From the NCBI GenBank assembly GCA_001636495.1, contig KV440964.1, positions 2,558,666 through 2,622,665 on the forward strand: a DNA stretch of 64,000 nt, written 5' to 3'. The translations under genes were made by a program, and so were the position numbers. This stretch comes from Sutcliffiella horikoshii. GTDB lineage: Bacteria; Bacillota; Bacilli; Bacillales; Bacillaceae_I. Shown in pieces: positions 22,287 through 39,394 of the stretch. Each line of letters begins with the position of its first letter. Positions within the stretch are counted from its first letter, which is position 1. A model generated the notes under the pieces. The model saw only the letters and a program-made list of their open reading frames with translations. It searched no databases and was not told the DNA's origin.

Positions 22287-22334
22287 TTGAAAAACGTATA
22301 ACATTATATTATAATGACGTTAAATAAACGTTAT
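22287..22334 (+). promoter_or_regulatory. paaA operon promoter with CGTT-N5-AACG operator
   Basis: TTGAAA (22287-22292), 17 bp, TATAAT (22310-22315), then the inverted repeat ACGTTAAATAAACGTTAT at 22317-22334 over the predicted start of transcription. The same repeat is found after the -10 of two other promoters in this window (34253 and 37787). Confidence 0.8.
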
Positions 22335-22354
22335 AGAAATAGGAGGCGGCGAAA

Positions 22355-23323
22355 ATGACCAACTCATTATCGTTTGACCGCTTGACGGAAGAAGAGAAAC
22401 ATGAGCATTTTATGCAGCGTATCCAGGCTGGGGAAAAGATTGAAGCAGACGATTGGATGCCGGAAGAATATCGTAAAACATTAATTAAACTGATCTCGAT
22501 GCATGCAATCAGCGAAATAATGGGAGCGCTTCCAGAAAAGGAATGGGTACCAAAAGCTCCTACTCTAAAAAGAAAGCTTGGGATCATGGCTAAAGTTCAA
22601 GATGAAATGGGCCATGGACAGCTGCTGTTACGAGTTGCGGAAGATTTGATGGAACCTTACGGAAAATCCCGTGAAGAAATAATGCAAGATTTATTTTCAG
22701 GAGATTTAAAGTTTCATAATGTTTTTCATATGGAAGCACCAACATGGGGCGATGCAGGTCTTATCGGCTGGCTTGTTGACGGGGCTGCCATCATATCGCA
22801 GACGAATATGCTAGATGCATCCTATGGACCTTATGCGAGAGCGCTAAAGAGGATATGTGCAGAAGAAGTTTTTCATGCTCAACACGGCGAAGCTATTATT
22901 ATGGCACTTGCAGAAGGAACAGAAGAACAAAGAAATATGATACAAGATTCCATTAATCGCTGGTGGGAAGCTTTGTTAATGTTCTTTGGACCGGCAGATG
23001 CCTCAACTACTGGTACTTCAAAGCAAGATATTACGATGAAATATAATATCCGCACCAAAAGCAATGAAGAACTTCGCCAAGACTTTTTCACCAAATACAT
23101 TCCGAGAGTGTTATCGCTTGGCCTAACATTGCCGGATGAAACGATGCATTATGATGAAAAAGAAGAAAAATGGATTTATAAACAACCGAATTGGAACAAC
23201 TTTAAAGATATTATCAGAAATAAAGGTCCTAAATCACAGGATCGCCTGAGATTAAGAATAATAGCACATGAAAATAATGCATGGGTTCGCGAAGCGTTAA
23301 GCTCCGAAACATCAGCAGGATGA
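22355..23323 (+). CDS. paaA: 1,2-phenylacetyl-CoA epoxidase, subunit PaaA
   Basis: Catalytic diiron subunit of the ring-epoxidising monooxygenase acting on phenylacetyl-CoA. 322 residues, ferritin-like; carboxylate/His ligands lie in DEMGHGQ and in AEEVFHAQHGE. SD AGGAGGCGG before the ATG. First gene of paaABCD, which form a tight run. Confidence 0.96.
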   Translation: MTNSLSFDRLTEEEKHEHFMQRIQAGEKIEADDWMPEEYRKTLIKLISMHAISEIMGALPEKEWVPKAPTLKRKLGIMAKVQDEMGHGQLLLRVAEDLMEPYGKSREEIMQDLFSGDLKFHNVFHMEAPTWGDAGLIGWLVDGAAIISQTNMLDASYGPYARALKRICAEEVFHAQHGEAIIMALAEGTEEQRNMIQDSINRWWEALLMFFGPADASTTGTSKQDITMKYNIRTKSNEELRQDFFTKYIPRVLSLGLTLPDETMHYDEKEEKWIYKQPNWNNFKDIIRNKGPKSQDRLRLRIIAHENNAWVREALSSETSAG

Positions 23324-23340
23324 GGGGAGGAGCTAAGGAA

Positions 23341-23688
23341 TTGAGTACAAAAGGCTTTTATAAAGAATTTGAAGTGTTTAGTAAGAGAACCCATACGGCT
23401 CCAATGCAATATCAGTTCAGTCTACTTGCTCCCAACGAAGAGATTGCGCTTGTCATGGCACAAGAAAACTTCATGAGACGTGAGCCTGCCGTGGATATTT
23501 GGGTGGTGCAACGAGGCGATATCCGAAAAATGTCTCAAGAAGAACGTCAATCTTTGCAGAGAATTGACAACAAGGACTACCGAAACACGAAAGGCTATGG
23601 ATATTTGAAGAAAAAATGGCGTCACTATGAACAGGGGATGCTTGATGAGCAGGAAATCATGTCTTGGGGAGGGAAGAAAAAAGGATGA
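23341..23688 (+). CDS. paaB: 1,2-phenylacetyl-CoA epoxidase, subunit PaaB
   Basis: Small bridging subunit of the epoxidase complex, 115 residues. It begins FYKEFEVFSKRTHTAPMQYQ, contains ALVMAQENFMRREPAVDIWVV, and ends in a basic tail. TTG 23341 is taken as start because a GGGGAGGAG SD is located 9 nt upstream and the family N-terminus begins here; a longer frame reaching 23281 lies within paaA. Confidence 0.92.
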   Translation: MSTKGFYKEFEVFSKRTHTAPMQYQFSLLAPNEEIALVMAQENFMRREPAVDIWVVQRGDIRKMSQEERQSLQRIDNKDYRNTKGYGYLKKKWRHYEQGMLDEQEIMSWGGKKKG

Positions 23689-24506
23689 ATATAGCAACGA
23701 TAGAAGAAGCCAAAAGAGATGCATCCTATTACAAGGCCCTAACAGCGTTATTATATCAACTGGCCGACGACGATTTTATCATTGCCTACAGGGGATCGGA
23801 ATGGCTGGGCCTTGCGCCGCATATTGAAGAGGATGTTGCATTTTCTTCCATAAACCAAGATACGATGGGGCATGCCGCCATGTACTACCAATTGCTTGAG
23901 GATCTCGGCGAAGGGGACATGAATGCACTTGCACATGGAAGAACAGCCGCAGATAGAGTGAACGCAGTTCTTTTGGAAAAAGTAAATGGTTCCGGGACCT
24001 ATCTCACCGAACCGAAATATGATTGGGCCTATACCGTAGTAAGACATTATTTTTACACACAGGCCAAGAAAATTAAAGTGGAGGCATTGAAAAACTCCTC
24101 CTATGAACCTCTGAAACATGTGGCAGTAAAGGTGAATATGGAACTTTATTATCACTTGTTACACTGGAGAACTTGGTTCAGACAGTTGTGTACAGCTAAT
24201 GGTGAAGCTAAGACCAGGATGAAAGCAGCCATTGATAGAGTTGTAGAAGAATTTGATGGTGTCCTTTCCTTGGGGCCAATTGTTGTTCAAATTACACAAC
24301 ACCAACTAATAGATTCAGAGGAAGATATTCGCCTTCGCTTTACTGAAGAGATGACAACTATGTTTGAAAAAGTGGGAATGACTTTTCCAGATAATATGGG
24401 AATGAAAAGTGGCAATGGCAGACAAGGTGAACATACCAAGGATTTGGAAGACGCCCTTTTGACGCTTAGCGAAGTCTATAGTAGCAATCCAGCTGCTGTA
24501 TGGTAA
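23685..24506 (+). CDS. paaC: 1,2-phenylacetyl-CoA epoxidase, subunit PaaC
   Basis: Structural ferritin-like partner of PaaA, 273 residues. Typical stretches: LLYQLADDDFIIAYRGSEWLGLAPHIEEDVAFSS and QDTMGHAAMYY, with VKVNMELYYHLLHWRTW. The ATG at 23685 overlaps the paaB stop (ATGA), so the two are translationally coupled; the frame before it is inside paaB. Confidence 0.95.
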   Translation: MNIATIEEAKRDASYYKALTALLYQLADDDFIIAYRGSEWLGLAPHIEEDVAFSSINQDTMGHAAMYYQLLEDLGEGDMNALAHGRTAADRVNAVLLEKVNGSGTYLTEPKYDWAYTVVRHYFYTQAKKIKVEALKNSSYEPLKHVAVKVNMELYYHLLHWRTWFRQLCTANGEAKTRMKAAIDRVVEEFDGVLSLGPIVVQITQHQLIDSEEDIRLRFTEEMTTMFEKVGMTFPDNMGMKSGNGRQGEHTKDLEDALLTLSEVYSSNPAAVW

Positions 24507-24548
24507 GACAAATCACCTTTTAGCCTAACAAAAAGGAATGATGACATC

Positions 24549-25040
24549 ATGCAGGAAGAAGCAATTTTAATGAAGGTTTGGGATGCCCTGCAGCATGTAA
24601 AGGATCCTGAAATAGATTCCGTCAGCGTAGTGGATCTCGGAATGGTGGAAGCAATTGATGTAAACAATCAGGAAGTGACCATACAGATGCTGCCTACATT
24701 CATGGGGTGTCCAGCCCTTGATATCATAAAAAAGAATGTAGAAAACGAGATGGATAATTTAAAAGAATTTCAAAAGGTGACTGTTCAATTCATTTATCAG
24801 CCTCCCTGGACTTCTGACCGCATTACTGAACAAGGCAGAAGTCATTTGAAAGAATTTGGGATTGCACCGCCACCTATAATAGATGCTTCCGGGGAATGGC
24901 ATGTGGATTGCCCTTATTGCGGATCGACTTATACAACATTAGATAACATCTTTGGCCCCACCGCCTGCAGGAGCATTCTCTATTGCAAAGGTTGTAAAAA
25001 CCCTTTTGAAGCAATGAAACCTGTTTCCACCATGATGTAA
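24549..25040 (+). CDS. paaD: 1,2-phenylacetyl-CoA epoxidase assembly protein PaaD
   Basis: A MIP18/SufT-type protein thought to help build the metal centres of the Paa monooxygenase. 163 residues: N-terminal DUF59 domain (VKDPEIDSVSVVDLGMV ... PTFMGCPALD, Cys about residue 56) and a C-terminal zinc ribbon with CPYC and CKGC. Spacing of 42 bp after paaC keeps it in the operon. No paaE reductase gene follows. Confidence 0.93.
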   Translation: MQEEAILMKVWDALQHVKDPEIDSVSVVDLGMVEAIDVNNQEVTIQMLPTFMGCPALDIIKKNVENEMDNLKEFQKVTVQFIYQPPWTSDRITEQGRSHLKEFGIAPPPIIDASGEWHVDCPYCGSTYTTLDNIFGPTACRSILYCKGCKNPFEAMKPVSTMM

Positions 25041-25144
25041 GTACCAATGCCTAACAGAGAAAACGCTGTCAGGCGATTACATAAATAACTGGCCTGATAA
25101 AACCCCAGCGGTTTATTGAGAGCCCATAAAAGGAGAGATTTGGA

Positions 25145-25453
25145 ATGGTAAAATTAATCGCGCTTTACAAACACCCGGAAAACAAGGAAGCTTTCGATCA
25201 GCACTATTTCGACACACATGCACCTATCACTGCTAAAATCCCTGGCCTACGCAAAATGGAAGTAACGAAAGTAGTAGGCAGTCCAATGGGCGGTGAAGGC
25301 AAGTACTATTTAATGTGTGAAATGTATTACGACAGCCATGACGCGTTAAAGCAAGCAATGAGAACGGATGAAGCGAAAGCATCTGGAAAGGATCTAATGA
25401 GCTTTGCCGGTAATCTTGTCACTTTGATGATTGGTGAAGAAGTGAATGAGTAA
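25145..25453 (+). CDS. EthD family protein
   Basis: A 102-residue ferredoxin-like alpha+beta protein: VKLIALYKHPENKEAFDQHYFDTHAP is the EthD signature, with conserved His residues. EthD proteins act with oxygenases or as small isomerase/cyclase-like enzymes. It starts behind AAGGAGAG and ends 8 bp inside the next gene, so it is an operon member. Its role in phenylacetate breakdown is undetermined. The 104-bp gap before it contains an imperfect stem (GCCTAACAG/CTGTCAGGC). Confidence 0.85.
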   Translation: MVKLIALYKHPENKEAFDQHYFDTHAPITAKIPGLRKMEVTKVVGSPMGGEGKYYLMCEMYYDSHDALKQAMRTDEAKASGKDLMSFAGNLVTLMIGEEVNE

Positions 25454-26225
25454 AACGTACGAATATATTGAAGTTTCCATTGAAAGCTCGATAGGTATTG
25501 TTAAACTCAATAGACCAAAAGTGCTGAACGCAATTAACAGGCCGATGGTCACTGAAATTGTGACAGTATTGGAAGAGTTTGATCGAAACGATGAAGTCAA
25601 AGCTATGGTATTGGCAGGAAACGGCCGTGCTTTTGCTGCAGGAGCAGATATCGATGAAATGGCAGAAGCAACAGCGATTGAGCTTGAACTGTTAAATCAA
25701 TTCACAGAATGGGATCGACTTGCTTGGGTAAAGAAACCTATTATCGGTGCTGTTCAAGGCTTTGCCCTTGGGGGAGGCTTTGAACTTGCCCTCTGTTGTG
25801 ACATCTTATTTGCAGCACATGATGCCGAATTCGGCTTTCCTGAGATAAGCCTCGGTGTCATGCCTGGAGCAGGGGGAACGCAGAGATTGACAAAACTGAT
25901 GGGCAAATCAAAAGCAATGGAATGGTTGCTTACCGGTGACAGGATGAGTGCAAAGGAAGCATTGCATTATGGAGTGATCAACCGGGTCATCCCGAAAGAA
26001 TTATTAATGGAAGAAACCATGCATTTTGCACAAAAAATAGCTAAACAACCGCCTCTTTCCCTTCGATTGATCAAAGAATCTGTCCATAAGGCAGTGGACT
26101 ATTCTGTGTATGAAGGGATGCAATACGAACGAAAGAATTTTTATCTTTTGTTTGCATCCAAAGATCAAAAAGAAGGCATGCGTGCATTTAAGGAAAAGCG
26201 TAAGCCTAAATTTGAAGGGGAATAA
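25446..26225 (+). CDS. paaF: Enoyl-CoA hydratase (PaaF-like)
   Basis: A 259-residue crotonase. Both catalytic glutamates of hydratases are seen: in GGGFELALCCD and in FPEISLGVMPGAGGTQRL, with the oxyanion-hole AGNGRAFAAGADIDEM. Likely hydrates 2,3-dehydroadipyl-CoA in the lower Paa pathway; which crotonase takes which step is inferred from active-site residues. It overlaps the EthD gene by 8 bp. Confidence 0.88.
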   Translation: MSKTYEYIEVSIESSIGIVKLNRPKVLNAINRPMVTEIVTVLEEFDRNDEVKAMVLAGNGRAFAAGADIDEMAEATAIELELLNQFTEWDRLAWVKKPIIGAVQGFALGGGFELALCCDILFAAHDAEFGFPEISLGVMPGAGGTQRLTKLMGKSKAMEWLLTGDRMSAKEALHYGVINRVIPKELLMEETMHFAQKIAKQPPLSLRLIKESVHKAVDYSVYEGMQYERKNFYLLFASKDQKEGMRAFKEKRKPKFEGE

Positions 26226-26237
26226 GGGGGATACACC

Positions 26238-27011
26238 ATGTTTGAAACCATTAAATATGAAATAGTAAACCAGGTTGCATGGGTCATCATGAACCGGCCG
26301 GATAAATTGAATGCGTTTACAGAACAGATGAACAAAGAGATCACGAAGGCATTAAAGCAGGCAAGTTTGGATGAAAGTGTTCGGGCTATAGTCATTACCG
26401 GGGAAGGCAGGGCGTTTTCCTCTGGCCAGGACCTTGCAGAAGTGGATGAAAATATGGATCACGGTCATGTCTTGCGTACAAGATATGGGCCGATGATGAA
26501 ACAGTTGTCCCGATGTGAAAAACCTGTCATTGCTGCGATAAATGGAGTTGCTGCCGGTGCAGGTTTCAGCCTTGCCTTAGCATGTGATTTTCGTATTGCC
26601 TCTGAAAAAGCAAGCTTTGTTCAAGCGTTTATACATGTCGGGTTAATCCCTGACTCGGGGAATCTGTATTTTCTCCCTAAATTAGTGGGAACGGCCAAAG
26701 CATTGGAGTTAGCTATATTAGGAGAGAAAATTAAAGCAGAACAGGCAAAAGAATATGGACTTGTCACCAAAGTGGTCCCTGTAGACAGTTGGAACGAAGA
26801 AGTGGAAGCATTTGCGAACAAACTTGCTAACATGCCTACACAAGCAATTGGACTCATTAAACGATCTATACAAGCAAGTTGGAACCTTACGTATGAAGAG
26901 TATTTGGAGCAGGAAGCGTACGGTCAGAGAATTGCCGGTCTATCAGAAGACCACAAAGAAGGGGTAACTTCTTTTATAGAAAAAAGAAAACCAGCATTTA
27001 AAGGAAGATAA
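26238..27011 (+). CDS. paaG: 2-(1,2-epoxy-1,2-dihydrophenyl)acetyl-CoA isomerase (PaaG-like)
   Basis: A 257-residue crotonase paralogue. It lacks the first hydratase Glu (AAGAGFSLALACD) and has Asp in HVGLIPDSGNLYFLP, the pattern of PaaG, which turns the epoxide into oxepin-CoA and also isomerises 3,4- to 2,3-dehydroadipyl-CoA. GGGGGA SD; 12 bp after paaF. Confidence 0.87.
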   Translation: MFETIKYEIVNQVAWVIMNRPDKLNAFTEQMNKEITKALKQASLDESVRAIVITGEGRAFSSGQDLAEVDENMDHGHVLRTRYGPMMKQLSRCEKPVIAAINGVAAGAGFSLALACDFRIASEKASFVQAFIHVGLIPDSGNLYFLPKLVGTAKALELAILGEKIKAEQAKEYGLVTKVVPVDSWNEEVEAFANKLANMPTQAIGLIKRSIQASWNLTYEEYLEQEAYGQRIAGLSEDHKEGVTSFIEKRKPAFKGR

Positions 27012-27035
27012 TAAAAACTTAAAGGAGATGAGAGT

Positions 27036-28553
27036 ATGTCTACAGTTAAAGAGCAAAAAATGGAACAACTTGATATGAAACGAGACACTTATCAACTTAT
27101 TATCGCAGGTCAACGCATGGGTAGTTCTACAGGAGAAACGTTTACTACTTACAATCCTGCAACAGGAGAAGCAGTTGCAACGATCGCGAAAGCTTCTAAA
27201 GAGGATGCGGAAAAAGCGGTTCAAGCCGCACGTCAAGCATTTGATAAAGGAAAGTGGAAGCTCTTCCCGTTAAACAAACGTGCAAGAACATTAAATAAAA
27301 TTGCTTCTATCATGCGATCCCGTTTCAATGAGCTGGTAGAGTTAGAGATTTTAGATACTGGTAAGTCCCTTGCAGCTGCACAAGGGCAAGTGATGCAAGC
27401 AATCGAAGACTTTGAGTTCTATGCAGGTGCTATCGTTGGCCACCGCGGATCTGTTAATAACGTTCCAGGACAATTCCACAACTTCACAGAAAAAGAACCA
27501 GTAGGTGTTTGTGCGCAGATCATTCCATGGAACTATCCACTAATGATGGCAGCATGGAAGATTGCCCCGGCAATAGCGGTAGGCTGCTCCGTTGTCGTGA
27601 AACCAGCCACCCTAACTCCGCTGACTGCCATCGTGTTAGGTGAAATATGTGTAGAAGCAGGAGTTCCTGAAGGAGTTGTCAACATCATCCCAGGTGCAGG
27701 GTCTGAAGTTGGAAACTACTTAGTTGAACACCCTCAAGTAGACAAAGTAGCATTCACTGGCTCAACTCCAATCGGAAAAGACATCATGGAGAAAGCTTCC
27801 CAGACTCTTAAACGAGTAACATTGGAACTTGGTGGCAAGTCTCCTAATCTAGTATTTGAAGATGCAGACATTGATGCTGCAGTAGACGGATCTTTGTTTG
27901 GAATTTTTTATAACACAGGTCAATCTTGTGAAGCGCGTTCCCGTCTGTATGTCCACGAAAATATCTATGACGCGTTTATGGAGAAGTTCGTAGAAAAAGC
28001 GAAAAAGCTTTCCCTTGGTGATCCTTTTGCAAAAGAAACACATATTGGCGCGATCATCAACCAAGGTCAGTTAGATGTAATTGACGGCTATGTTCAATCT
28101 GCAAAAGAAGAAGGAGCTAACATCGTTTTAGGCGGTCAAGTGGCTAAAGTGGAAGGCTATGAAAATGGTTTCTGGTATGAGCCAACCATTATCACTGGTG
28201 TTACACACGAAATGAAAGTGGTAAAAGAGGAGATTTTCGGGCCAGTTGTGGTAGTTATGCCATTTAGTGACGAGAAAGAAGCGGTTAGACTTGCGAATGA
28301 CAGCGAATATGGACTTGGTTCAGCTATCTGGACAAAAGACCATGGCCGTGCAACCCGTGTTGCAAAACAAATCCAAGCTGGAATCGTGATGGTCAACTGC
28401 CCATTCTCCGCTTTCCCTGGCACGCCGTTTGGAGGATATAAGCAATCCGGCTTCGGACGCGAGCTATGCATTGAAACGCTTGATCTTTATACAGAGACGA
28501 AGAGCATCATTTCCTATTTCGGAAACCGTCCGCTTAATCCGTTCGGTGTATAA
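27036..28553 (+). CDS. Aldehyde dehydrogenase (probable open-chain semialdehyde dehydrogenase of the Paa pathway)
   Basis: A 505-residue NAD(P)-dependent ALDH. Catalytic Cys in GQSCEARSRLYV, general base Glu in VTLELGGKSPNLV, NAD motif FTGSTPIGKDIM, and EEIFGPVVVVMPF. In organisms without a fused PaaZ, a separate aldehyde dehydrogenase oxidises the ring-opened 3-oxo-5,6-dehydrosuberyl-CoA semialdehyde; its place in this operon suggests that job. The partner oxepin-CoA hydrolase is not obvious here. SD AAGGAGATGAG. Confidence 0.85.
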   Translation: MSTVKEQKMEQLDMKRDTYQLIIAGQRMGSSTGETFTTYNPATGEAVATIAKASKEDAEKAVQAARQAFDKGKWKLFPLNKRARTLNKIASIMRSRFNELVELEILDTGKSLAAAQGQVMQAIEDFEFYAGAIVGHRGSVNNVPGQFHNFTEKEPVGVCAQIIPWNYPLMMAAWKIAPAIAVGCSVVVKPATLTPLTAIVLGEICVEAGVPEGVVNIIPGAGSEVGNYLVEHPQVDKVAFTGSTPIGKDIMEKASQTLKRVTLELGGKSPNLVFEDADIDAAVDGSLFGIFYNTGQSCEARSRLYVHENIYDAFMEKFVEKAKKLSLGDPFAKETHIGAIINQGQLDVIDGYVQSAKEEGANIVLGGQVAKVEGYENGFWYEPTIITGVTHEMKVVKEEIFGPVVVVMPFSDEKEAVRLANDSEYGLGSAIWTKDHGRATRVAKQIQAGIVMVNCPFSAFPGTPFGGYKQSGFGRELCIETLDLYTETKSIISYFGNRPLNPFGV

Positions 28554-28575
28554 AAAGAATAATTTTTAAAATTGG

Positions 28576-28608
28576 AGCAAAGGGGCATGGTCCTCTTTGC
28601 TTTTTTTA
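28576..28608 (+). terminator. Possible internal terminator or attenuator in the paa operon
   Basis: AGCAAAGGGG and CCTCTTTGCT form a stem followed by T7, between the ALDH and paaH genes. No strong promoter is visible between it and paaH, so it may reduce rather than stop transcription. Confidence 0.6.
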
Positions 28609-28634
28609 CAGCATGATGAAGGAGGAGAATCTAG

Positions 28635-29480
28635 ATGGAAAAAGTAGTGGTCATCGGTTCAGGTGTCATGGGTCGTGGCATTGCCTATGTAAGTGCGTTA
28701 GGCGGGTACCATACAACACTAATAGACGTGAAGGACGAACAACTTGAAGGTGCTAGAACCGAAATAGAAACCATCATCTCAAAAGGGTTGGAAAGAGGAA
28801 AAATAACAGAGCACGTAGCAGGGGAATTAAGAGATAGTTTATATTATTCTACCAAACTTGAAGATGCCGCTATGCAAGCCAATCTTATTATAGAAGCGGT
28901 ACCTGAAAACATGGAAATTAAAAAAACTGTCTACCAAAAAATAGACAAGGTTGCACCTGCGCATTGTTTTTTTGCTTCCAATACCTCTACCATGAGTCCA
29001 ACAGAAATAGGAAGTTTCACATCGCGACCGGAAAAAGTGATCGCGATGCACTTTTTTAATCCAGTACATAAAATGAAACTTGTGGAAATTGTCCGTGGTT
29101 TGGAAACAAGCGATGAAACGGCAGAATTTATCCGTCATGCAGCAGAAAAAATGGGGAAAGAAACGGTTGTTGTCAATGAATTTCCTGGATTTGTGACAAG
29201 CAGAATCAGTGCCCTTGTCGGGAATGAAGCCTTTTATATGTTGCAAGAAGGGGTAGGAACACCTGAAGAGATTGATAAAGCGATCAAACTTGGACTTAAT
29301 TATCCGATGGGGCCATTCGAACTTGGAGACTTGGTAGGATTGGATACACGTCTGAATAACCTGAAATATCTTCATGAAAAGTTAGGCGAAAAGTATCGCC
29401 CGGCACCTCTGCTAGAAAAGTATGTGAAAGCCGGAAGACTAGGCAGGAAAAGTGGAAAAGGAGTTTATGACTACCAATAA
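28635..29480 (+). CDS. paaH: 3-hydroxyacyl-CoA dehydrogenase (PaaH-like)
   Basis: A 281-residue NAD-dependent short 3-hydroxyacyl-CoA dehydrogenase. Rossmann motif VVIGSGVMGRGIAYVSAL; catalytic His-Glu pair in HFFNPVHKMKLVEIV; NEFPGFVTSRI. Likely oxidises 3-hydroxyadipyl-CoA to 3-oxoadipyl-CoA. GGAGGAG SD. Twelve to twenty bp from the next thiolase gene. Confidence 0.92.
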   Translation: MEKVVVIGSGVMGRGIAYVSALGGYHTTLIDVKDEQLEGARTEIETIISKGLERGKITEHVAGELRDSLYYSTKLEDAAMQANLIIEAVPENMEIKKTVYQKIDKVAPAHCFFASNTSTMSPTEIGSFTSRPEKVIAMHFFNPVHKMKLVEIVRGLETSDETAEFIRHAAEKMGKETVVVNEFPGFVTSRISALVGNEAFYMLQEGVGTPEEIDKAIKLGLNYPMGPFELGDLVGLDTRLNNLKYLHEKLGEKYRPAPLLEKYVKAGRLGRKSGKGVYDYQ

Positions 29481-29501
29481 ACAACAAGAGAGGTGTGCCT
29501 T

Positions 29502-30713
29502 ATGAAGGAAGTTGTAATTGTAGATGCTTGCCGAACACCAATTGGAAGGTATAAAGGTGCGTTAAAGGCTGTTCGCCCGGATGACCTTGGGGCAATCGTA
29601 ATTAAAGCCCTTGTAGAAAGAAACCCTAGTGTGCCGGTAATTGAAATCGAAGAAGTCGTGTTCGGCAATGCCAACCAGGCGGGGGAAGATAACCGCAATG
29701 TTGCACGGATGAGTGCATTATTGGCAGGTCTACCGGTAGAGGTGGCTGGCACTACTATCAACCGTTTATGCGGATCGGGTCTTGATGCGGTAAATTATGC
29801 GGCACGTGCCATAATGGTGGGAGAAGGCGACATTTTTATAGCCGGCGGGACTGAGAGCATGACAAGGGCTCCTTTTGTCATGGCAAAGCCGGAAATGGAC
29901 TACCCCCGAGGCAATATGGAGCTCATGGATACCACCATCGGCTGGAGATTTACTAACAGAAAACTTGAAAAAATGTACGGAGTGGACACGATGCCGCAAA
30001 CGGCAGAAAACGTGGCAAGAGAATTCTCCGTCTCCCGTGAAGATCAAGACGTATTTGCCCTTGAAAGCCAGCAAAAAGCAAAAAAAGCAATGGATTCGGG
30101 CCGCTTTAAAGAAGAAATGGTACCAGTCACGATTGTGGATAGAAAAGGCAAGGAAACAATTGTTGACTGCGACGAGCACCCTCGACCTGAGACGAGTTTA
30201 GAGAAACTGAGCACCCTGAAACCTATTTTTGGCGAAGGTACCACAATAACTGCAGGCAACGCGTCAGGTGTAAATGACGGCGCAGCGGCATTGCTACTGA
30301 TGAGTGCAGAGAAAGCGAAAGAGCTTGGTTTAAGGCCATTAGCAAGGTATGTCACATCTGCCGCTGCCGGGCTTACTCCATCGATTATGGGAATAGGGCC
30401 GATTTACGCTACCAGGAAAGCACTTGGAAGGGCAGGTCTGTCTGTTAGTGATATAGACCTTGTTGAGTTAAATGAAGCATTTGCCTCCCAATCGCTAGAA
30501 TGTATGCGCCAATTAGAACTAGATCCTAGCAGAGTGAATGTAAACGGGGGTGCAATTGCGTTTGGACATCCTCTTGGTGCCAGCGGGGCAAGGATCTTAA
30601 CTACCCTTGTGCATGAAATGAACAAACGGGGTGTAAGATACGGCCTTGCGACGATGTGTGTAGGAGTTGGACAGGGGATTGCGACGATAGTTGAGAGACC
30701 ACATGAATCATAG
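29502..30713 (+). CDS. paaJ: Thiolase (PaaJ-like, 3-oxoadipyl-CoA thiolase)
   Basis: A 403-residue thiolase with nucleophilic Cys in NRLCGSGLDAV (about residue 90), His in GGAIAFGHPLGASGAR and second Cys in MCVGVGQG. In this operon the expected substrate is 3-oxoadipyl-CoA, giving succinyl-CoA and acetyl-CoA. ATG 29502 is preferred over GTG 29493, which overlaps the SD GAGAGGTG. An 8-bp stem (AATCATAG/CTATGATT, 30706-30732) follows the stop and may end the transcript. Confidence 0.92.
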   Translation: MKEVVIVDACRTPIGRYKGALKAVRPDDLGAIVIKALVERNPSVPVIEIEEVVFGNANQAGEDNRNVARMSALLAGLPVEVAGTTINRLCGSGLDAVNYAARAIMVGEGDIFIAGGTESMTRAPFVMAKPEMDYPRGNMELMDTTIGWRFTNRKLEKMYGVDTMPQTAENVAREFSVSREDQDVFALESQQKAKKAMDSGRFKEEMVPVTIVDRKGKETIVDCDEHPRPETSLEKLSTLKPIFGEGTTITAGNASGVNDGAAALLLMSAEKAKELGLRPLARYVTSAAAGLTPSIMGIGPIYATRKALGRAGLSVSDIDLVELNEAFASQSLECMRQLELDPSRVNVNGGAIAFGHPLGASGARILTTLVHEMNKRGVRYGLATMCVGVGQGIATIVERPHES

Positions 30714-30865
30714 AGCTTGATGCCCTATGATTCTTTGGGCTGGTTTTTTGGAGGAAGCTTGGATAAGTTTTCCGTTTTCATCTTTTCTATAACGCGTTAC
30801 TCTGTTAAAATGAAATTACTGTAATATAGCTATTTATCATTTGTGGTAGAAAGAGGATGCAGGTA

Positions 30866-31741
30866 ATGAATACAAGATCTATGATTTTCACTTTATATGG
30901 GGACTATGTCAGACATTATGGCAATAAAATTTGGATTGGTAGCTTAATCAAATTATTAAATGAATTTGGTCATAATGATCAAGCAGTGCGCGCAGCGATA
31001 TCGCGTATGAACAAGCAGGGATGGGTCCAAGCGGAGAAAAAGGGGAACAAAAGTTATTATTTTTTAACAGACCGCGGCGTGAAAAGAATAGATGAAGCGG
31101 CGAAACGTATTTTCAAGTTGAAGACGGATAGCTGGGATGGAAAATGGCGCATGCTTATGTACACCATTCCCGAAGAGATCCGAAGTGTTCGGGACGAGCT
31201 GCGGAAAGAGTTGGTATGGAGTGGGTTTGGGACGTTATCAAACAGTTGTTGGATTTCGCCTAACTCATTAGAAAAACAAGTACAGGACCTTATCGCCAAA
31301 TACGAAATAGAAGAGTATGTAGACTTTTTCATTTCTGAATATCATGGGCCTTTTGAAAATGAACGACTTGTGATGAAAAGTTGGGATCTGAATGAGATAA
31401 ATGGAAGGTACCAACAATTTATCCAAGAGTATAGCCAGAAATATATCATCGATAAGAATAAGATTGGAAAAGGCCAAATGACAGATGCTGAATGTTTCGT
31501 GGAGCGGACCAAGCTTGTACATGAATACAGAAAGTTCTTGTTCGTTGATCCGGGACTGCCAGAAGAGCTTTTACCGGACATGTGGCTCGGCAGTCATGCA
31601 GCTTCTTTGTTTAGTGAATATTATAAAGAATTGGCAGAGCCAGCTTCTCGCTTCTTTGAAGAGGTCTTTGAGGATGGTAATGAGCTTGAGTTGAAGGATA
31701 AGAAGTATGATGTGATGAATCATCCATATATTATGGAGTGA
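30866..31741 (+). CDS. paaX: PaaX-family transcriptional regulator
   Basis: A 291-residue regulator with an N-terminal winged helix (LINKLLNEFGHNDQ-type: IKLLNEFGHNDQAVRAAISRMNKQGWV), the PaaX central domain (WDGKWRMLMYTIPEEIRSVRDELRKELVWSGFG) and the C-terminal PaaX_C domain. PaaX is the phenylacetyl-CoA-responsive repressor in enteric and other bacteria. It lies directly after paaJ with its own spacing, so it may be autoregulated; it is the best candidate to bind the shared CGTT-N5-AACG sites. ATG 30866 gives better SD spacing than 30857. Confidence 0.93.
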   Translation: MNTRSMIFTLYGDYVRHYGNKIWIGSLIKLLNEFGHNDQAVRAAISRMNKQGWVQAEKKGNKSYYFLTDRGVKRIDEAAKRIFKLKTDSWDGKWRMLMYTIPEEIRSVRDELRKELVWSGFGTLSNSCWISPNSLEKQVQDLIAKYEIEEYVDFFISEYHGPFENERLVMKSWDLNEINGRYQQFIQEYSQKYIIDKNKIGKGQMTDAECFVERTKLVHEYRKFLFVDPGLPEELLPDMWLGSHAASLFSEYYKELAEPASRFFEEVFEDGNELELKDKKYDVMNHPYIME

Positions 31742-32440: not shown

Positions 32441-32506
32441 GATCAAGGATTACCCTAATGATTATTCCTCAATTCAACTGTTTTATAATTTCCTAAACAA
32501 CAATAA

Positions 32507-32530
32507 ACCGAGCCATCTACCCAGCCCGGT
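32507..32530 (-). terminator. Weak terminator for the hexapeptide-repeat gene
   Basis: ACCGAGC and GCCCGGT can pair with one mismatch; on the minus strand TTTATTGTT follows. Confidence 0.4.
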
Positions 32531-32552
32531 CACGCACGCAACTTCCGTCTAT

Positions 32553-33068
32553 TTATTCTCCCAATTCCCTCTCATAATCTTTCCCTTTCTGCACATATGT
32601 ATCAATGGACATCTGTATGAGCTCCAAATCCTTGTCTGTTAATTCACGAATCACCTTACCAGGCGACCCTACAACCAACGAACGTGGAGGAATCTTTTTA
32701 CCGGAAGGAATTAATGTGTTCGCTCCAATGATGCTTTCTTCCCCAATATCAGCACCATCCAAGATCGTCGAACCCATTCCTACTATACATCGCTTTCTAA
32801 CCGTACAGCCGTGCAATATAGCAGTATGGCCAACTGTCACTTCATCTTCAACCACTAAAGGGAAACCTTCGTATAAATGCGCTGTTACATTATCTTGGAT
32901 GCTGCATCTCTTACCAATGGAAATTGGTCCTTCATCGCCGCGCAGAACCGCGTTAAACCAAACAGTCGATTCTTCTCCGATCGTTACGTCACCGATAATT
33001 CGAGCTCCAGGTGCTACAAAAACTGAATCATGAAGTTGAGGTTTTTTTCCACCAAAAGGATAAATCAT
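32553..33068 (-). CDS. Gamma-carbonic-anhydrase-like hexapeptide protein (PaaY/YtoA family)
   Basis: A 171-residue left-handed beta-helix protein built of hexapeptide repeats (IGDVTIGEESTVWFNAVLRGD ...). The metal-binding His pattern of gamma-carbonic anhydrases is present (NVTAHLYEG, TVGHTAILHGC). Next to paa genes it could act as PaaY, a thioesterase-like protein that relieves dead-end CoA esters, but YtoA-type homologues occur widely outside paa loci, so this role is uncertain. It is transcribed alone on the minus strand. Confidence 0.85.
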   Translation of the reverse strand: MIYPFGGKKPQLHDSVFVAPGARIIGDVTIGEESTVWFNAVLRGDEGPISIGKRCSIQDNVTAHLYEGFPLVVEDEVTVGHTAILHGCTVRKRCIVGMGSTILDGADIGEESIIGANTLIPSGKKIPPRSLVVGSPGKVIRELTDKDLELIQMSIDTYVQKGKDYERELGE

Positions 33069-33147
33069 TCATCACTCACTCCCCAAATATTATTGTCTAA
33101 ATATTAAAATTAGTATAACATTATTTTTACGAGGGGTGAAATATTTG

Positions 33148-34095
33148 ATGAATAAACTACAAGTAATTCTAAAAATAAACTTTCCGATCATCCAAGGCGG
33201 AATGGGGAATATCAGTAATGCTCCATTAACTGCAGCTGTTTCCAACGCAGGAGGTCTCGGTACAATAGGGGCAGGTACGATGAAGCCGGAAGAAGTGGAA
33301 GAGATTATCATTAAAACCAAAGAACTCACGGAAAAACCTTTTGCTGTGAATGTTGCTTTGTCGGTTTCTCCATATACGAAAGAAGTTCTGAAACTCATTA
33401 TTAAGCACAAGGTACCGGTTGTGTCCCTTTCAGCAGGGAATCCGGCTCCTTATATTCCGAAGCTAAAGGAACATGGGCTAACGGTCATTTGTGTGGTGGC
33501 TTCTCCTAAACAGGCTATAAAAGCAGAGAATGAGGGAGCTGATATTATTGTAGCAGAAGGTTATGAAGCTGCCGGCATAAATTCTAACCTTGAAACAACC
33601 ACTATGACATTAATTCCACAAATTGTAGAGGCTGTGTCCATTCCTGTTGTAGCAGCTGGGGGAATAGGGAATGGAAAAGGGCTTGCTGCAGCTATCGCCC
33701 TGGGTGCCTCTGGAGTGCAGATGGGGACAAGATTGATTGCTACGAAAGAAGCACCTTTCCACCATCATTATAAGAATTCCATCTTAGCTGCTGACGATCA
33801 GGGTACTGTCATTGTGGGCCGAACCGTCGGGAGAGTACGAAGGGTCATTCGTACTCCATATGCAGATCTGCTTCTAAAAAAAGAGCAGGAAGGGATTACA
33901 CTTGAAGAGTTTAATTTGTTAACTACTGAAGATCACCACATTAAAGGTGCAGTAGAGGGTGAGCTGGAGCAAGGATTCATTAACGGCGGTCAAATATCAA
34001 GTATCATCCAAACGATCCCAAGTGTAAGTGAACTTTTCGAGCAAATGGTTACGGAAGCAAAAGAGCAGCTACAAAAAGCAGATGCCCAATTATAA
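33148..34095 (+). CDS. FMN-dependent oxidoreductase, nitronate monooxygenase/FabK family
   Basis: A 315-residue TIM-barrel flavoprotein. FMN-binding features: FPIIQGGMGNIS at the N-terminus, GGLGTIGAGTM, VVAAGGIGNGKGLAAAIALGASGVQMGTRLIAT. Members oxidise alkyl nitronates or reduce enoyl-ACP; the active-site His of classical NMO is not clear from reading (EGYEAAG replaces EG.EAGGH), so the substrate is open. Start at 33148, with GAGGGG upstream; TTG 33145 is an alternative. A terminator follows. Confidence 0.8.
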   Translation: MNKLQVILKINFPIIQGGMGNISNAPLTAAVSNAGGLGTIGAGTMKPEEVEEIIIKTKELTEKPFAVNVALSVSPYTKEVLKLIIKHKVPVVSLSAGNPAPYIPKLKEHGLTVICVVASPKQAIKAENEGADIIVAEGYEAAGINSNLETTTMTLIPQIVEAVSIPVVAAGGIGNGKGLAAAIALGASGVQMGTRLIATKEAPFHHHYKNSILAADDQGTVIVGRTVGRVRRVIRTPYADLLLKKEQEGITLEEFNLLTTEDHHIKGAVEGELEQGFINGGQISSIIQTIPSVSELFEQMVTEAKEQLQKADAQL

Positions 34096-34101
34096 AAGTC
34101 A

Positions 34102-34139
34102 AGAAACCTCTTAGCCATTCAGAGGTTTCTATTTTTTTA
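34102..34139 (+). terminator. Terminator after the FMN oxidoreductase gene
   Basis: AGAAACCTCT and AGAGGTTTCT form a 10-bp stem with a 9-nt loop, followed by a T-run. Confidence 0.88.
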
Positions 34140-34220
34140 TTTATAAAAAGAAAAAGGGTTTTAGAGAAAAATGGCGTATTTATTGTAAAATAATAAATTT
34201 ATTTAAATTTTTAGAATATA

Positions 34221-34272
34221 TTGACACTATTTGTTTGTTGGTGTTAATATAACGTTGAAAAAACGAATAACG
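34221..34272 (+). promoter_or_regulatory. ABC importer promoter with CGTT-N5-AACG operator
   Basis: TTGACA (34221-34226), 17-18 bp, TTAATA/TAATAT (34244-34250), then CGTTGAAAAAACG at 34253-34265 and a further AACG at 34269-34272. The repeat has the same spacing and position relative to -10 as in the paaA and thioesterase-pdh promoters. Confidence 0.75.
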
Positions 34273-34364
34273 TTTTGTCCATCATAGACAACCACATAAT
34301 GTAAACGGTTTCAAGAGCTTACATAATTTTATGTAGCTTTAAAACATATATAAGGGGGATAAGT

Positions 34365-35363
34365 ATGAAAAAGTTCAAGATGAAATCTATTTTGGCAAGT
34401 ATGGCATGCGCAGCTTTACTAGTCGGCTGTAGTTCCGATTCAACAAGTGGGGATGCAAAGGATCAAGTGGTTGTAGGGGTAACCCAAATTGCTGAGCATC
34501 CTTCATTGGATGCTGCGTTTGAAGGTTTCAAGAAGGCGCTAGAGGACAATGGGTACAAAGAAGGCGAGAATGTCAAATATGATGTTCAAAATGCTCAAGG
34601 AGATCCGAATAACAACAAGCCTATTGCAGATAAGTTTGTTGCAGATGAGGTGAATTTGATTTTTGCTAACTCCACTCCAAGTGCTCAAAGTGCGTTGCAG
34701 GCTACAAAAGATATTCCTATCATTTTTACATCGGTAACCGATCCTGTTGGTGCAGAGCTGGTAGAATCCTTTGAAAAGCCAGGCCAAAACATCACAGGTA
34801 CTTCAGATACACATCCTGATGCAATAGCTACTACCATCAATTTCATGATAGACGAGCTTGGTGCGAAAAGTATCGGGGTTATCTATAATACTGGGGAGCA
34901 AAACTCCGTAGTTCAAGTCGAAGCTGTGAAAAGTCTTGTTGAGGAAAAAGGCGGAACTCTAGTAGAAGCATCCGTTTCTACATCTGCAGAGGTTCAGCAG
35001 GCCGCAGAATCTCTAATTGGCAGAGTAGATGCTATCTATATGCCTACAGATAACACGGTTGTTTCAGCTATACAATCACTCATTACAGTTGCCACGAATG
35101 AAAAGATTCCTTTGTTTGCAGGAGATCTTGATTCCATGGAAGCAGGAGCAGTTGCGGCAAGTGGATTTAACTATTACGACTTGGGTTATGAAACTGGCTT
35201 AATGGCTGTTCAAGTTCTTAAAGGGGAAAAAGACCCTTCTGATATTCCAGTATCCTATCCTCAGAGCTTGAAATTAACTATTAATACAGAAGCTGCAGAA
35301 GCTCAAGGCTTGGAAGTGCAAGATGCTTGGACGGAGTTTGCAGAGTTCTATGATGAAAAATAA
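34365..35363 (+). CDS. ABC transporter substrate-binding lipoprotein (TrpX-like, ABC_sub_bind family)
   Basis: A 332-residue periplasmic-type binding protein anchored by a lipobox LLVGC (Cys about 22). It is of the family typified by tryptophan-binding TrpX: VVVGVTQIAEHPSLDAAFEGFKKAL, ANSTPSAQSAL, FTSVTDPVGAELV. The ligand is probably an aromatic compound: the operon lies among phenylalanine/tyrosine catabolic genes and shares their operator. The precise ligand is not visible from sequence. AAGGGGGA SD. Confidence 0.88.
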   Translation: MKKFKMKSILASMACAALLVGCSSDSTSGDAKDQVVVGVTQIAEHPSLDAAFEGFKKALEDNGYKEGENVKYDVQNAQGDPNNNKPIADKFVADEVNLIFANSTPSAQSALQATKDIPIIFTSVTDPVGAELVESFEKPGQNITGTSDTHPDAIATTINFMIDELGAKSIGVIYNTGEQNSVVQVEAVKSLVEEKGGTLVEASVSTSAEVQQAAESLIGRVDAIYMPTDNTVVSAIQSLITVATNEKIPLFAGDLDSMEAGAVAASGFNYYDLGYETGLMAVQVLKGEKDPSDIPVSYPQSLKLTINTEAAEAQGLEVQDAWTEFAEFYDEK

Positions 35364-35396
35364 GAAATTTTAAGACAACAAGGAGATGATTCTGAC

Positions 35397-36419
35397 ATGG
35401 TAACAGCAATTTTTGGTTCAGTCGAATTGGGAATCATCTACGCAATCATGGCCCTAGGGGTATATCTCTCCTTTAGGGTCCTTGATTTTCCTGATTTGAC
35501 AGTAGATGGTAGCTTTGTAACCGGTGCTGCAGTTGCTGCGACAATGATTGTTAGCGGCTATAGTCCCATCACAGCTACAGTGGTGGCTATGGTTGCAGGA
35601 TTTATCGCAGGTTGCATTACCGGTTCCTTACATACGTTTGGAAAGATTAATCCACTATTATCTGGTATTTTAATGATGATTGCCCTATATTCCATCAATT
35701 TGCGAATAATGGGAAGGTCGAATGTGCCATTATTAAATAGTGATACTTTTTTCACCAACATCCGTTCCTGGTGGGGGAATACCGGAATAGATGAGTTTTT
35801 GAACAATATTTTCTCTACTATTGGATTAGGTGCTTTTGTCCCCAGAACATGGGGGATCATCTTTATCATGTTAATTGTGACGTTTGCCATTAAAATCATC
35901 ACTGATTTATTTTTGAAAACGGAAATCGGTTTGGCAATCAGAGCAACAGGGGATAATAAGCGGATGATTCGAAGCCTTTCTGCCAATACAAGCGGACTGG
36001 TTATTCTTGGTTTGGGAATTTCAAATGCCATGGTTGCATTTTCAGGTGCATTGATAGCCCAGCATGGCGGGTATGCAGACGTCGGAATGGGAATCGGGAT
36101 GATTATCATCGGATTAGCATCTGTTATTATCGGAGAGGCCATATTTGGTACCAGGACGATTGCATGGACCACTTTTGCCGTTATCGGCGGTGCCATCATC
36201 TATCGTATTGTTGTGACACTTGCCTTGAGGGTGGAATTCTTAAAAACAGGTGACTTGAAAGCCATTACGGCAACCATTGTTATTTTGGCGCTTATCACTC
36301 CTAAATTCATTGATGGCTACAAAGATCGAAAGAGGAAAAAACAGAAGATGCTAAAACTGGGATCTTTACAATCGGCCAATGAAAAGGGGGATCAACGTGC
36401 TACATTTAACACAGATTAA
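35397..36419 (+). CDS. ABC transporter permease (TrpY-like)
   Basis: A 340-residue membrane protein with about nine hydrophobic segments, resembling branched-chain-type permeases that partner with TrpX-like binding proteins (LSFRVLDFPDLTVDGSF, EIGLAIRATGDNKRMIRSL cytoplasmic coupling loop). It ends in a basic cytoplasmic tail and overlaps the ATPase gene by about 20 bp, so the two are coupled. Confidence 0.87.
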   Translation: MVTAIFGSVELGIIYAIMALGVYLSFRVLDFPDLTVDGSFVTGAAVAATMIVSGYSPITATVVAMVAGFIAGCITGSLHTFGKINPLLSGILMMIALYSINLRIMGRSNVPLLNSDTFFTNIRSWWGNTGIDEFLNNIFSTIGLGAFVPRTWGIIFIMLIVTFAIKIITDLFLKTEIGLAIRATGDNKRMIRSLSANTSGLVILGLGISNAMVAFSGALIAQHGGYADVGMGIGMIIIGLASVIIGEAIFGTRTIAWTTFAVIGGAIIYRIVVTLALRVEFLKTGDLKAITATIVILALITPKFIDGYKDRKRKKQKMLKLGSLQSANEKGDQRATFNTD

Positions 36420-37191
36420 TAAAATCTTCAATGAAGGAACTTTAGATGAGAAAAATGCGCTTGATACCATCAATCTTTCTTTAGAAAAAGGGGATTTCGT
36501 CACTATCATTGGTAGTAACGGTGCCGGTAAGTCCACCTTGATGAATATGATCTCAGGAGTGCTGACGCCTGATACCGGAAAAGTAGAGATTGATGGACGC
36601 AATGTCACCTATTTGGCAGAGCACAGAAGAGCGAAATATATCGGAAGGGTGTTCCAGGATCCAATGGCAGGAACGGCTCCTACGATGACGATTGAAGAGA
36701 ATTTGGCAATGGCCTATTCACGGAATAAAAATCGCACATTAAAGATGGGTGTGACCAAAAAGAGAAAAGCCTATTTCAAAGAGGTGCTCGAAACCCTGCA
36801 CCTTGGTTTGGAAAATAGATTGAGTGCAAAAGTTGGATTACTCTCAGGTGGGGAAAGACAAGCTTTGTCACTTTTGATGGCAACATTCACAGAACCTGAT
36901 ATTCTGCTTTTGGATGAGCATACTGCTGCTCTTGATCCATCTCGTGCCGAATTAATTACCAACATCACAAAAGAAATCGTTGCAGATAAAGGGTTGACTA
37001 CTCTGATGGTGACCCATAATATGCAACAGGCCTTGGATCTTGGGAACCGTTTAATTATGATGGACAAGGGGCAAATCATTTTGGAAGTGGGAGAAGAAGA
37101 AAAGAAATCTCTTACGATTGAAAGATTGTTGGCTGAGTTCCAGCGAATACGCGGTCAAGCAATGACCAACGACAGAGCATTATTAAGTTGA
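36397..37191 (+). CDS. ABC transporter ATP-binding protein (TrpZ-like)
   Basis: A 264-residue ATPase: Walker A GSNGAGKST, Q-loop FQDPMAGTAP, signature LSGGERQA, Walker B ILLLDEHTAALD, switch His in VTHNMQQAL. The DEHTAALD form is typical for this transporter type. GTG 36397 is preferred since AAAGGGGG lies 7 nt before it; ATG 36379 overlaps this SD. Last gene of the operon. Confidence 0.9.
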   Translation: MLHLTQINKIFNEGTLDEKNALDTINLSLEKGDFVTIIGSNGAGKSTLMNMISGVLTPDTGKVEIDGRNVTYLAEHRRAKYIGRVFQDPMAGTAPTMTIEENLAMAYSRNKNRTLKMGVTKKRKAYFKEVLETLHLGLENRLSAKVGLLSGGERQALSLLMATFTEPDILLLDEHTAALDPSRAELITNITKEIVADKGLTTLMVTHNMQQALDLGNRLIMMDKGQIILEVGEEEKKSLTIERLLAEFQRIRGQAMTNDRALLS

Positions 37192-37197
37192 ATTTGT

Positions 37198-37233
37198 AAA
37201 GAGGAAAATGACACGCTCATTTTCCTCTTTTTC
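37198..37233 (+). terminator. Terminator of the ABC importer operon
   Basis: AAAGAGGAAAATGA and TCATTTTCCTCTTT form a 14-bp stem with a 5-nt loop and T5. Confidence 0.92.
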
Positions 37234-37278
37234 ATTGTTTAAAATATTATGAAATAATGGAATGCTGGATTCGTTGGG

Positions 37279-37707
37279 GGTGAAGACCCCAGTGCCGAGG
37301 AAAAAGAAGGAGAGAGGTCCTCATCACCCGTATGAAGACCTCAGTGACGAGAAATCCGGAGGAGAGAGGTCCTCATCACCGTTATGAAGACCTCAGTCAC
37401 GAGGAAAAAGGATGGAGAGAGGTCCTCATCACCGTTATGAAGACCTCAGTGACGAGGAAAAAGAAGTAGAGAGGTCCTCATCTCCCGTATGAAGACCTCA
37501 GTCACGAGAAATCCGGAGGAGAGAGGTCCTCATCACCCGTATGAAGACCTCAGTCACGAGAAATCCGGAGTAGAAAGGTCTTCATCACCCGTATGAAGAC
37601 CTCAGTCACGAGGAAAAAGGAGGAGAGAGGTCCTCATCACCGTTATGAAGACCTCAGTGACGAGGGAAAAAGAAGAGAGAAGTCTTCATTGCCAATATGA
37701 AGACCTA
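37279..37707. repeat. 52-bp tandem repeat array 3 (eight units plus partial ninth)
   Basis: Unit starts are 37279, 37331, 37383, 37436, 37488, 37540, 37592 and 37644, with a partial one at 37696; spacing is 52 bp with one 53-bp step. The consensus is TATGAAGACCTCAGTSACGAG - GAAAAAGG or AAATCCGG - AGGAGAG - AGGTCCTCATCACCSG. Arms ATGAAGACCTC and GAGGTCCTCAT pair. Two core variants (aaaaagg and aatccgg types) alternate along the array. It fills the gap between the ABC operon and the thioesterase promoter; no ORF is found in it. Confidence 0.96.
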
Positions 37708-37754
37708 TCTCCTTTGTGTTTTTAATTGACTATTTATAAAATTTCTACAATTTA

Positions 37755-37806
37755 TTGACTGTTCATTTAACGAAATGTTATTATAGCGTTGAATAAACGT
37801 TATACG
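37755..37806 (+). promoter_or_regulatory. Thioesterase-pdh operon promoter with CGTT-N5-AACG operator
   Basis: TTGACT (37755-37760), 18 bp, TATTAT (37779-37784), then CGTTGAATAAACG at 37787-37799 followed by TTATACG. Same layout as the paaA and ABC importer promoters. Confidence 0.75.
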
Positions 37807-38205: not shown

Positions 38206-38232
38206 AAGATTAATAGAAAAAGGGTGGTTGCT

Positions 38233-39378: not shown

Positions 39379-39394
39379 TAGAGGGGGAAATAAG

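Follow-up and report, generated by a model that had tools for sequence, protein, structure and literature searches.

A palindromic site shared by the promoters of a phenylacetyl-CoA catabolic island in Sutcliffiella horikoshii and its likely repressor PaaX

The island and its promoters

We analyzed a 64,000-nucleotide stretch of Sutcliffiella horikoshii DNA (contig KV440964.1; hereafter the window) that carries an island of genes for the catabolism of phenylacetyl-coenzyme A (CoA), a gene for a repressor of the PaaX family, and a set of short palindromic sites that recur in the island's promoters. The island opens with a gene for a paaK-like phenylacetate-CoA ligase (20947..22266, + strand; 633 bits, just under the TIGR02155 cut-off of 646), followed on the same strand by a run of genes (22355..30713) comprising paaA, paaB, paaC, paaD, an EthD-like gene, two enoyl-CoA hydratase/isomerase genes, an aldehyde dehydrogenase gene, a paaH-like gene, and a gene for a paaJ-like thiolase, in which the labels paaB and paaC rest on position. 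The repressor gene paaX (30857..31741, +) lies with these catabolic genes and encodes the N-terminal, Cas2-like middle, and C-terminal domains of the family. Downstream are genes for a hexapeptide-repeat protein on the opposite strand (32553..33068, −), PaaY-like by position and fold family, and for a FabK-like flavoprotein (33136..34095, +; TIGR03151, 308 bits against a cut-off of 453), the true start of which is possibly 33145 or 33148. These are succeeded by an ATP-binding cassette (ABC) importer made up of a TrpX-like binding protein (277 bits, below the cut-off of 390), a permease, and an ATPase (34365..37191, +). The last operon (37822..44162, +) encodes an FlK-like thioesterase, a Trp/Phe-dehydrogenase-like protein (PheDH; best match to the tryptophan dehydrogenase ScyB, below cut-off), and the E1 alpha, E1 beta, lipoyl carrier, E2, and E3 components of a pyruvate dehydrogenase (PDH)-like complex.

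A first-pass annotation of this DNA had pointed to the motif CGTT-N5-AACG directly downstream of the -10 element in the promoters of the paaA, importer, and thioesterase operons. A pattern search of the window recovered all three cores where they had been reported (22318-22330, 34253-34265, and 37787-37799), and the common layout claimed for them proved to be exact: at each promoter CGTT starts 2 nt after the -10 hexamer, which ends at 22315, 34250, and 37784, respectively. The paaA operon has a sigma-A type promoter (22287..22315, +; TTGAAA-17-TATAAT, 11/12 matches), whereas those of the importer operon (34221..34250, +; TTGACA-18-TAATAT, 10/12) and the thioesterase-PheDH-PDH-like operon (37755..37784, +; TTGACT-18-TATTAT, 10/12) additionally have a TG before the -10 element. 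Along with the paaK promoter (20839..20867, +; TTGACA-17-TATTTT, 10/12), these are the four best plus-strand promoter matches in the region 20500-38300, where promoter-like matches overall are not above those in shuffles (35 versus 38.9). Exact core matches in the window number four, compared to 0.48 expected, a count reached in none of 100 shuffles. The fourth (27268-27280), which the first-pass annotation did not list, falls within the aldehyde dehydrogenase gene, lacks the flanks, and has a matrix score of −10.2; hence, we set it aside as a chance occurrence in coding sequence.

The core extends to a 21-bp palindrome, ATNNCGTTNAATAAACGTTAT, in which the CG pairs lie 11 bp apart. The symmetric matrix used to score such sites was derived from 25 distinct sites in 14 genomes, including the three in the window. 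The highest score in the window (25.9) belongs to the putative operator O1 before paaA (ATGACGTTAAATAAACGTTAT; 22314..22334, +), which overlaps the expected transcription start of the paaA operon, followed by O3 before the thioesterase gene (ATAGCGTTGAATAAACGTTAT; 37783..37803, +; 23.8) and O2 before the gene for the TrpX-like binding protein (ATAACGTTGAAAAAACGAATA; 34249..34269, +; 12.6); the next place scores 4.5. As the matrix draws in part on these three sites, their scores, like those in the other genomes that supplied sites, are not independent; the best score in 30 simulated windows averaged 6.9, with single ones of up to 11.4 and 20.8. O2 is weak in the right outer arm and has four mismatches to the palindrome. 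We also observed a TAAC resembling a third half-site 16 bp before the left arm, within the spacer between the -35 and -10 elements (22293-22309 in the window, and in relatives), which is present at most of the listed paaA and thioesterase sites and at none of the importer sites.

A weaker relative of the motif that had been noted before paaK is likewise present (CGGAATAAATTCG; 20903-20915). It begins 35 nt past the predicted -10 element (20862-20867), and the layout at paaK thus differs from that of the other three promoters. The corresponding degenerate operator, O4 (GTGTCGGAATAAATTCGTTAT; 20899..20919, +), keeps the CG-N9-CG spacing while scoring just −3.5 with the matrix. Nevertheless, in 25 of 29 genomes the 150 bp ahead of paaK contain the pattern CG-N9-CGT[TC]A, compared to 0.21 expected (13/15 in the genus and 12/14 outside it; the 30th locus was too short). 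A further candidate degenerate operator, O5 (ATAACATTATTTTTACGAGGG; 33115..33135, +), lies in the gap that separates the FabK-like gene from the divergently oriented hexapeptide gene. Its matrix score is low, its C-to-C spacing is 11 bp, as in the operator, and its TAAC-N10-CG pattern is found at 26 of 30 loci (13/17 outside the genus) versus 0.33 expected, with eight alternative spacings found at zero or one locus each. We hold O5 with less confidence because a -10-like sequence and a ribosome site overlap with it.

Several other features accompany these genes. A 52-bp direct repeat (unit with TATGAAGACCTCAGTGACGAG) forms arrays before paaK (20623-20788), between paaX and the hexapeptide gene (32228-32435), and before the thioesterase promoter (37281-37719). 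Elsewhere in the genome the unit is found at nine further places, which account for 14 of the 27 matches with up to one mismatch (none for a backwards control). The E2 component of the PDH-like complex is split (41473-42725) into a 111-aa lipoyl carrier and a 300-aa catalytic protein. Beyond the island lies a tyrosine breakdown set (44282-49279) with HPPD-like, aminotransferase, flavin reductase, fumarylacetoacetase-like, and homogentisate dioxygenase-like genes, and the 120-bp gap that separates it from the E3 gene has no operator.

Specificity and conservation of the palindrome

The first-pass annotation had held that many copies of the motif at unrelated promoters would speak against a shared repressor, and the outcome of the genome search depends on the form of the motif. 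The 13-bp core is not special: it occurs at 43 places compared to 88 for its backwards control, and we therefore rejected it as a genome-wide marker. We inspected 32 of the 43 places (28 outside and 4 inside the window); 24 of the 28 outside lie in an open reading frame (ORF) of at least 80 aa and 4 do not, and a by-eye look at the 32, without a promoter scan, brought up no further one laid out like the three. One of the places in an ORF (L006) consists of a hairpin with a T run after it. An identical 13-mer at G000:C1:1798232 was discarded as an operator candidate, being within a long reading frame that we take to be secDF. In contrast, the 21-bp form discriminates: with up to three mismatches it is found at 18 genome places (45 for the backwards control), of which the two best, with a single mismatch, are those before paaA and the thioesterase gene alone, the remaining 16 having three mismatches. 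Thus, for the 21- to 22-bp form, copies at many unrelated promoters did not appear.

To assess relatives, we examined 330 bp upstream of up to 30 loci per promoter, obtained by searches of 61 genomes. Before paaA, 25 of 30 loci have a site with a score reached by none of 100 shuffles, one is borderline (2/100), and four have none. The thioesterase gene has such a site at 20 of 30 loci and one more at 1/100; among the nine without, one (G003) is merely a cut locus, the site of which was found by the strict-pattern search described below. Upstream of the importer, 18 of 30 loci have a site at 0 to 1 of 100 shuffles and 12 do not, and the four genomes of this set that are devoid of paaX (G026, G035, G048, and G049) show no site (20 to 66 of 100 shuffles). 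A matrix scan of 47 island loci recovered 85 places scoring at least 8, of which 79 lie within 450 bp before island genes and six elsewhere. The 79 are distributed as paaA, 34; thioesterase, 21; importer, 18; paaK, 3 (G042, G050, and G107); PheDH, 2 (G028 and G107, where the thioesterase is absent); and paaX, 1 (G043). At least one such place is seen at 38 of the 44 loci with a PaaX orthologue; of the three loci that have just a distant PaaX-like protein (G053, G060, and the second copy in G032), one has a single place with a score of 9.0.

We then searched 199 genomes of the host's order with the strict pattern TNNCGTTNNNNNAACGTTAT. It recovered 108 places, 67 within 25 kb of paaX (in 52 of 82 genomes with paaX) and 41 elsewhere, and a strict site anywhere was found in 60 of the 82 genomes with paaX over the cut-off versus 18 of the 117 others (Fisher 1e-16, with kinship uncorrected). 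A two-mismatch version, tried in 30 genomes, matched too freely to be of use (between 53 and 245 places in a genome), and the regions upstream of paaA were used instead. Among the paaX genomes, 30 have no strict site near the gene. One of these (G069) has no paaA over the cut-off; 22 of the remaining 29, among which G046 and G050 had supplied sites to the matrix, have a site upstream of paaA at P ≤ 0.02 relative to simulated sequence. Some contigs with the thioesterase operon and without paaX (G003 and G205) look like contig breaks rather than cases of true separation.

The exact 22-bp form, ATNNCGTTRAATAAACGTTATA, was sought in one genome each of 84,980 species, a scan open to any organism or gene, and was found in 68 stretches, many from genomes related to those that had shaped the pattern. 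An island-type gene is the nearest such gene within 400 bp in 67 of the 68 (thioesterase, 36; paaA, 29; paaK, 1; paaX, 1), although in the paaX case, at 304 bp from the site, an intervening gene of another kind is possible; the remaining stretch ends 140 bp past the site. All 68 are titled as Bacillus-like Bacillota except one labeled Chryseobacterium. This record, Chryseobacterium sp. ISL-80 (L289/L263), carries a Bacillaceae-like thioesterase-PheDH operon with the operator; its name is probably wrong, as our genome set places the same contig (G205:C7) in the host's order.

A few sites lie at a distance from paaX. In one genome (G020), a 22/24 site precedes a paaK gene that is on a separate contig, at least ~125 kb away from paaX. 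Strict sites also precede a gene for the binding protein (DctP family) of a tripartite ATP-independent periplasmic (TRAP) transporter in two genomes of one genus (G022 and G132) and one of another (G058), with DctP proteins that are 58% identical between the two genera. These copies (L265, 3004-3024; L276; L269, 3025-3045) score 20.1 (G022; also G132) and 22.0 (G058), each stands directly after a -10-like sequence, and the distance to paaX is 2.0 Mb in G132 and 1.3 Mb in G058. Operators at unlinked paaK and TRAP genes point to a diffusible, trans-acting regulator; the TRAP-transporter sites bear on that property and not on PaaX as such. The DctP gene of G022 and G058 is likely to be a target of the same regulon, in which the transporter might be an aromatic-acid uptake system. 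In total, the paaX genomes have 22 strict sites distant from paaX; we scanned 10 neighboring proteins at seven of these loci, and the distant sites other than those at the DctP gene and the unlinked G020 paaK look unrelated.

PaaX and alternative readings of the sites

Comparison strongly supports the single repressor proposed for the three operons: the operator recurs at the corresponding promoters in different genera, sites cluster near paaX, and operators also precede unlinked genes. PaaX, named in the first-pass annotation as the simplest candidate, is likewise the simplest reading here. The protein is a full-length match to the TIGR02277 equivalog family (351 bits versus a cut-off of 264.55), and its domains PF07848 (N-terminal), PF20803 (Cas2-like middle), and PF08223 (PaaX_C) all exceed their cut-offs. 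No regulator besides PaaX was recognized among the 38 ORFs scanned between 12.8 and 50.5 kb of the window (paaB and paaC were outside the scan). Nor did any regulator family with at least two members emerge from 76 of the 110 extra island ORFs of relatives, a set in which single-member families are partly covered; the hexapeptide family, for comparison, is matched by 12 of the 76. The closest solved structure is PDB 8a39 (E = 8.6e-46), the molecule of which we take to be the Escherichia coli PaaX. The presumed recognition helix, of the NDQAVRAAISRMNKQGW type, is alike across the operator-bearing genomes and unlike that of 8a39, which fits a different operator. We further noted a second PaaX-like gene in six genomes (G032, G061, G073, G120, G147, and G164; 241 to 263 bits, below the cut-off), which is the sole copy in G120. 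It lies ~2 to 17 kb from a PaaA paralogue of just 123 to 135 bits, and the two possibly form a separate epoxidase-like system with its own PaaX.

Several observations weigh against PaaX as the common repressor or limit what the sites can say about it. All 81 genomes with paaA over the cut-off also have paaX over the cut-off, and such co-occurrence without exception means that presence alone cannot single out PaaX. In the window, paaX itself has no clear operator site. Sites are missing at the importer of three paaX genomes (G028, G036, and G046) in the 330-bp upstream test, places scoring at least 8 are missing at 6 of the 44 loci with a PaaX orthologue (some of them from cut stretches), 22 of the 82 paaX genomes have no strict site, and 7 of the 29 genomes with paaX and paaA discussed above have no significant site upstream of paaA. 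Many loci come from one genus, the members of which are not independent. The left CG is kept in 25 of the 25 matrix sites, as is the right G, with the right C in 24, but this invariance is partly built in because the template used to pick sites weights CGTT and AACG. Finally, the palindrome, 21 bp long with CG pairs 11 bp apart, differs from the E. coli PaaX site, given as TGATTC-N27-GAATCA (PMC9493321). The E. coli pattern is at chance level in the window (39 matches with up to three mismatches versus 50 expected), with none having fewer than two mismatches and one three-mismatch match overlapping the importer promoter.

These points leave room for other readings. One repressor other than PaaX could act at all the sites, e.g., a TetR-type PaaR encoded elsewhere that senses the same or a related CoA ester. 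The Thermus PaaR site, reported as CNAACGNNCGTTNG, indeed shares the AACG/CGTT half-sites (PMC9493321), and several Bacilli are predicted to have both PaaX and PaaR (PMC9493321; PMC13186573). However, the Thermus pattern is at chance level in the window (14 matches with up to two mismatches versus 12.8) and absent from the three promoters, no TetR family was found among the 38 scanned window ORFs (PaaR was looked for in no other part of the genome), the extra ORFs of relatives yielded no recurrent regulator, and the sites cluster around paaX; we accordingly regard a PaaR-like repressor as decidedly improbable. Far more so is the notion that the palindrome belongs to a conserved promoter or 5' leader, as an RNA hairpin or an initially transcribed region, rather than being a repressor site. 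Although it overlaps the expected transcription start, with the ribosome site close behind at paaA, the palindrome is kept while its distance to the start codon varies from ~17 to ~195 nt. Moreover, the paaK relative lies ~35 nt past the -10 element, the palindrome is also found at unlinked paaK and TRAP genes, and symmetry with a fixed 11-bp CG spacing and degenerate flanks fits a protein dimer; we give such a leader element hardly any credence.

A third possibility is compatible with PaaX as the binding protein and concerns its signal, which could be another acyl-CoA or aromatic compound, such as indoleacetyl-CoA or 4-hydroxyphenylacetyl-CoA, in which case the regulon would act on more than one aromatic amino acid and not on phenylalanine alone. 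In favor are the TrpX-like binding protein and the best match of the dehydrogenase to ScyB, both below cut-off, and the tyrosine breakdown genes that follow the island; conversely, the coregulated ring breakdown genes are the phenylacetyl-CoA set, and both PaaX and PaaR are described as responding to the first intermediate, phenylacetyl-CoA (PMC9493321). We think a different signal unlikely. On balance, we consider it highly probable from the combined sequence evidence that one repressor, namely the PaaX encoded in the island, recognizes all these sites as its operators, which would place the three operons under joint control relieved by phenylacetyl-CoA.

A predicted PaaX regulon for phenylalanine catabolism

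The sites were characterized by position, symmetry, spacing, conservation, specificity, and association with paaX, and from these features we infer the following mode of action. A PaaX dimer would bind the 21-bp palindrome through two CG-centered half-sites, ATNNCGTT and AACGTTAT, set 11 bp, i.e., one DNA turn, apart. Since the palindrome begins where the -10 element ends and spans the expected transcription start, bound PaaX is predicted to block RNA polymerase. Phenylacetyl-CoA, supplied by PaaK and probably by the PheDH/PDH-like operon, would release PaaX, such that the genes for the importer, phenylpyruvate oxidation, and ring breakdown are induced together. Because one target operon likely forms phenylacetyl-CoA itself, with phenylpyruvate as the intermediate from phenylalanine, induction would amplify itself through positive feedback. 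The operators appear to be graded in strength, with strong sites at paaA and the thioesterase operon, a weaker one at the importer, and degenerate ones at paaK and perhaps the FabK-like gene. The importer presumably carries phenylalanine and the complex presumably oxidizes phenylpyruvate, the family matches of the importer and dehydrogenase being below cut-off. Matches to the CcpA cre consensus were also observed: an exact site, ATGTAAACGGTTTCA, lies 30 bp past the importer operator (34299-34313) and one with a single mismatch, ATGAAAACGCTTACT, where the amino acid dehydrogenase gene begins (38242-38257). Cre-like matches with up to one mismatch on both strands of the window number 14 versus 3.8 expected, which suggests carbon catabolite repression on top of PaaX.

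The predicted system shares with the PaaX regulons of E. coli and Pseudomonas (paaABCDEFGHIJK, paaZ, and paaXY; styrene genes in Pseudomonas sp. Y2) the same PaaX domains and the phenylacetyl-CoA breakdown genes as targets. It differs from them in the presumed recognition helix and in the addition of an ABC importer and an amino acid dehydrogenase with a 2-oxoacid dehydrogenase complex. PaaX is described as hindering RNA polymerase sterically, in competition at Px and Pz, and as being released by phenylacetyl-CoA in E. coli and Pseudomonas (PMC9493321). The PaaR regulons of Thermus, Burkholderia, and Corynebacterium resemble the present one in having inverted repeats at paa promoters and are reported to involve phenylacetyl-CoA-responsive repression (PMC9493321); however, PaaR belongs to a different protein family and its sites are CNAACGNNCGTTNG or ACCGACCGGTCGGTT. 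A survey of paa clusters places PaaX, sometimes with PaaR, in Bacilli, and its main text has no occurrence of the word "operator" (PMC13186573). In a literature search limited mainly to open papers and without regulon databases, we found no PaaX site described in Bacillales.

More broadly, we lean toward the view that the PaaX proteins of Bacillales form a subfamily with a compact, one-turn operator (CG-N9-CG core) that would control a complete phenylalanine "catabolon" leading from uptake and deamination, through direct conversion of phenylpyruvate to phenylacetyl-CoA (oxidative decarboxylation by a PDH-like complex), to ring opening. Its inducer would be made by one of its own target operons, its operators would range from strong (paaA and the thioesterase operon) to degenerate (paaK and the FabK-like/PaaY-like gap), and a distant TRAP transporter would have been added in other genera.

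The analysis thus offers a predicted operator for PaaX in Bacillales and a predicted regulon in many genera, which is conserved and probably under PaaX control. Several components of uncertain annotation would be linked through their regulation to phenylacetyl-CoA metabolism, namely the TrpX-like importer, the amino acid dehydrogenase, and the additional PDH-like complex, together with the TRAP transporter of other genera. The analysis further provides a testable switch for Gram-positive hosts, probably responsive to phenylacetyl-CoA, and suggests the extent to which DNA specificity may have shifted between phyla within one repressor family.

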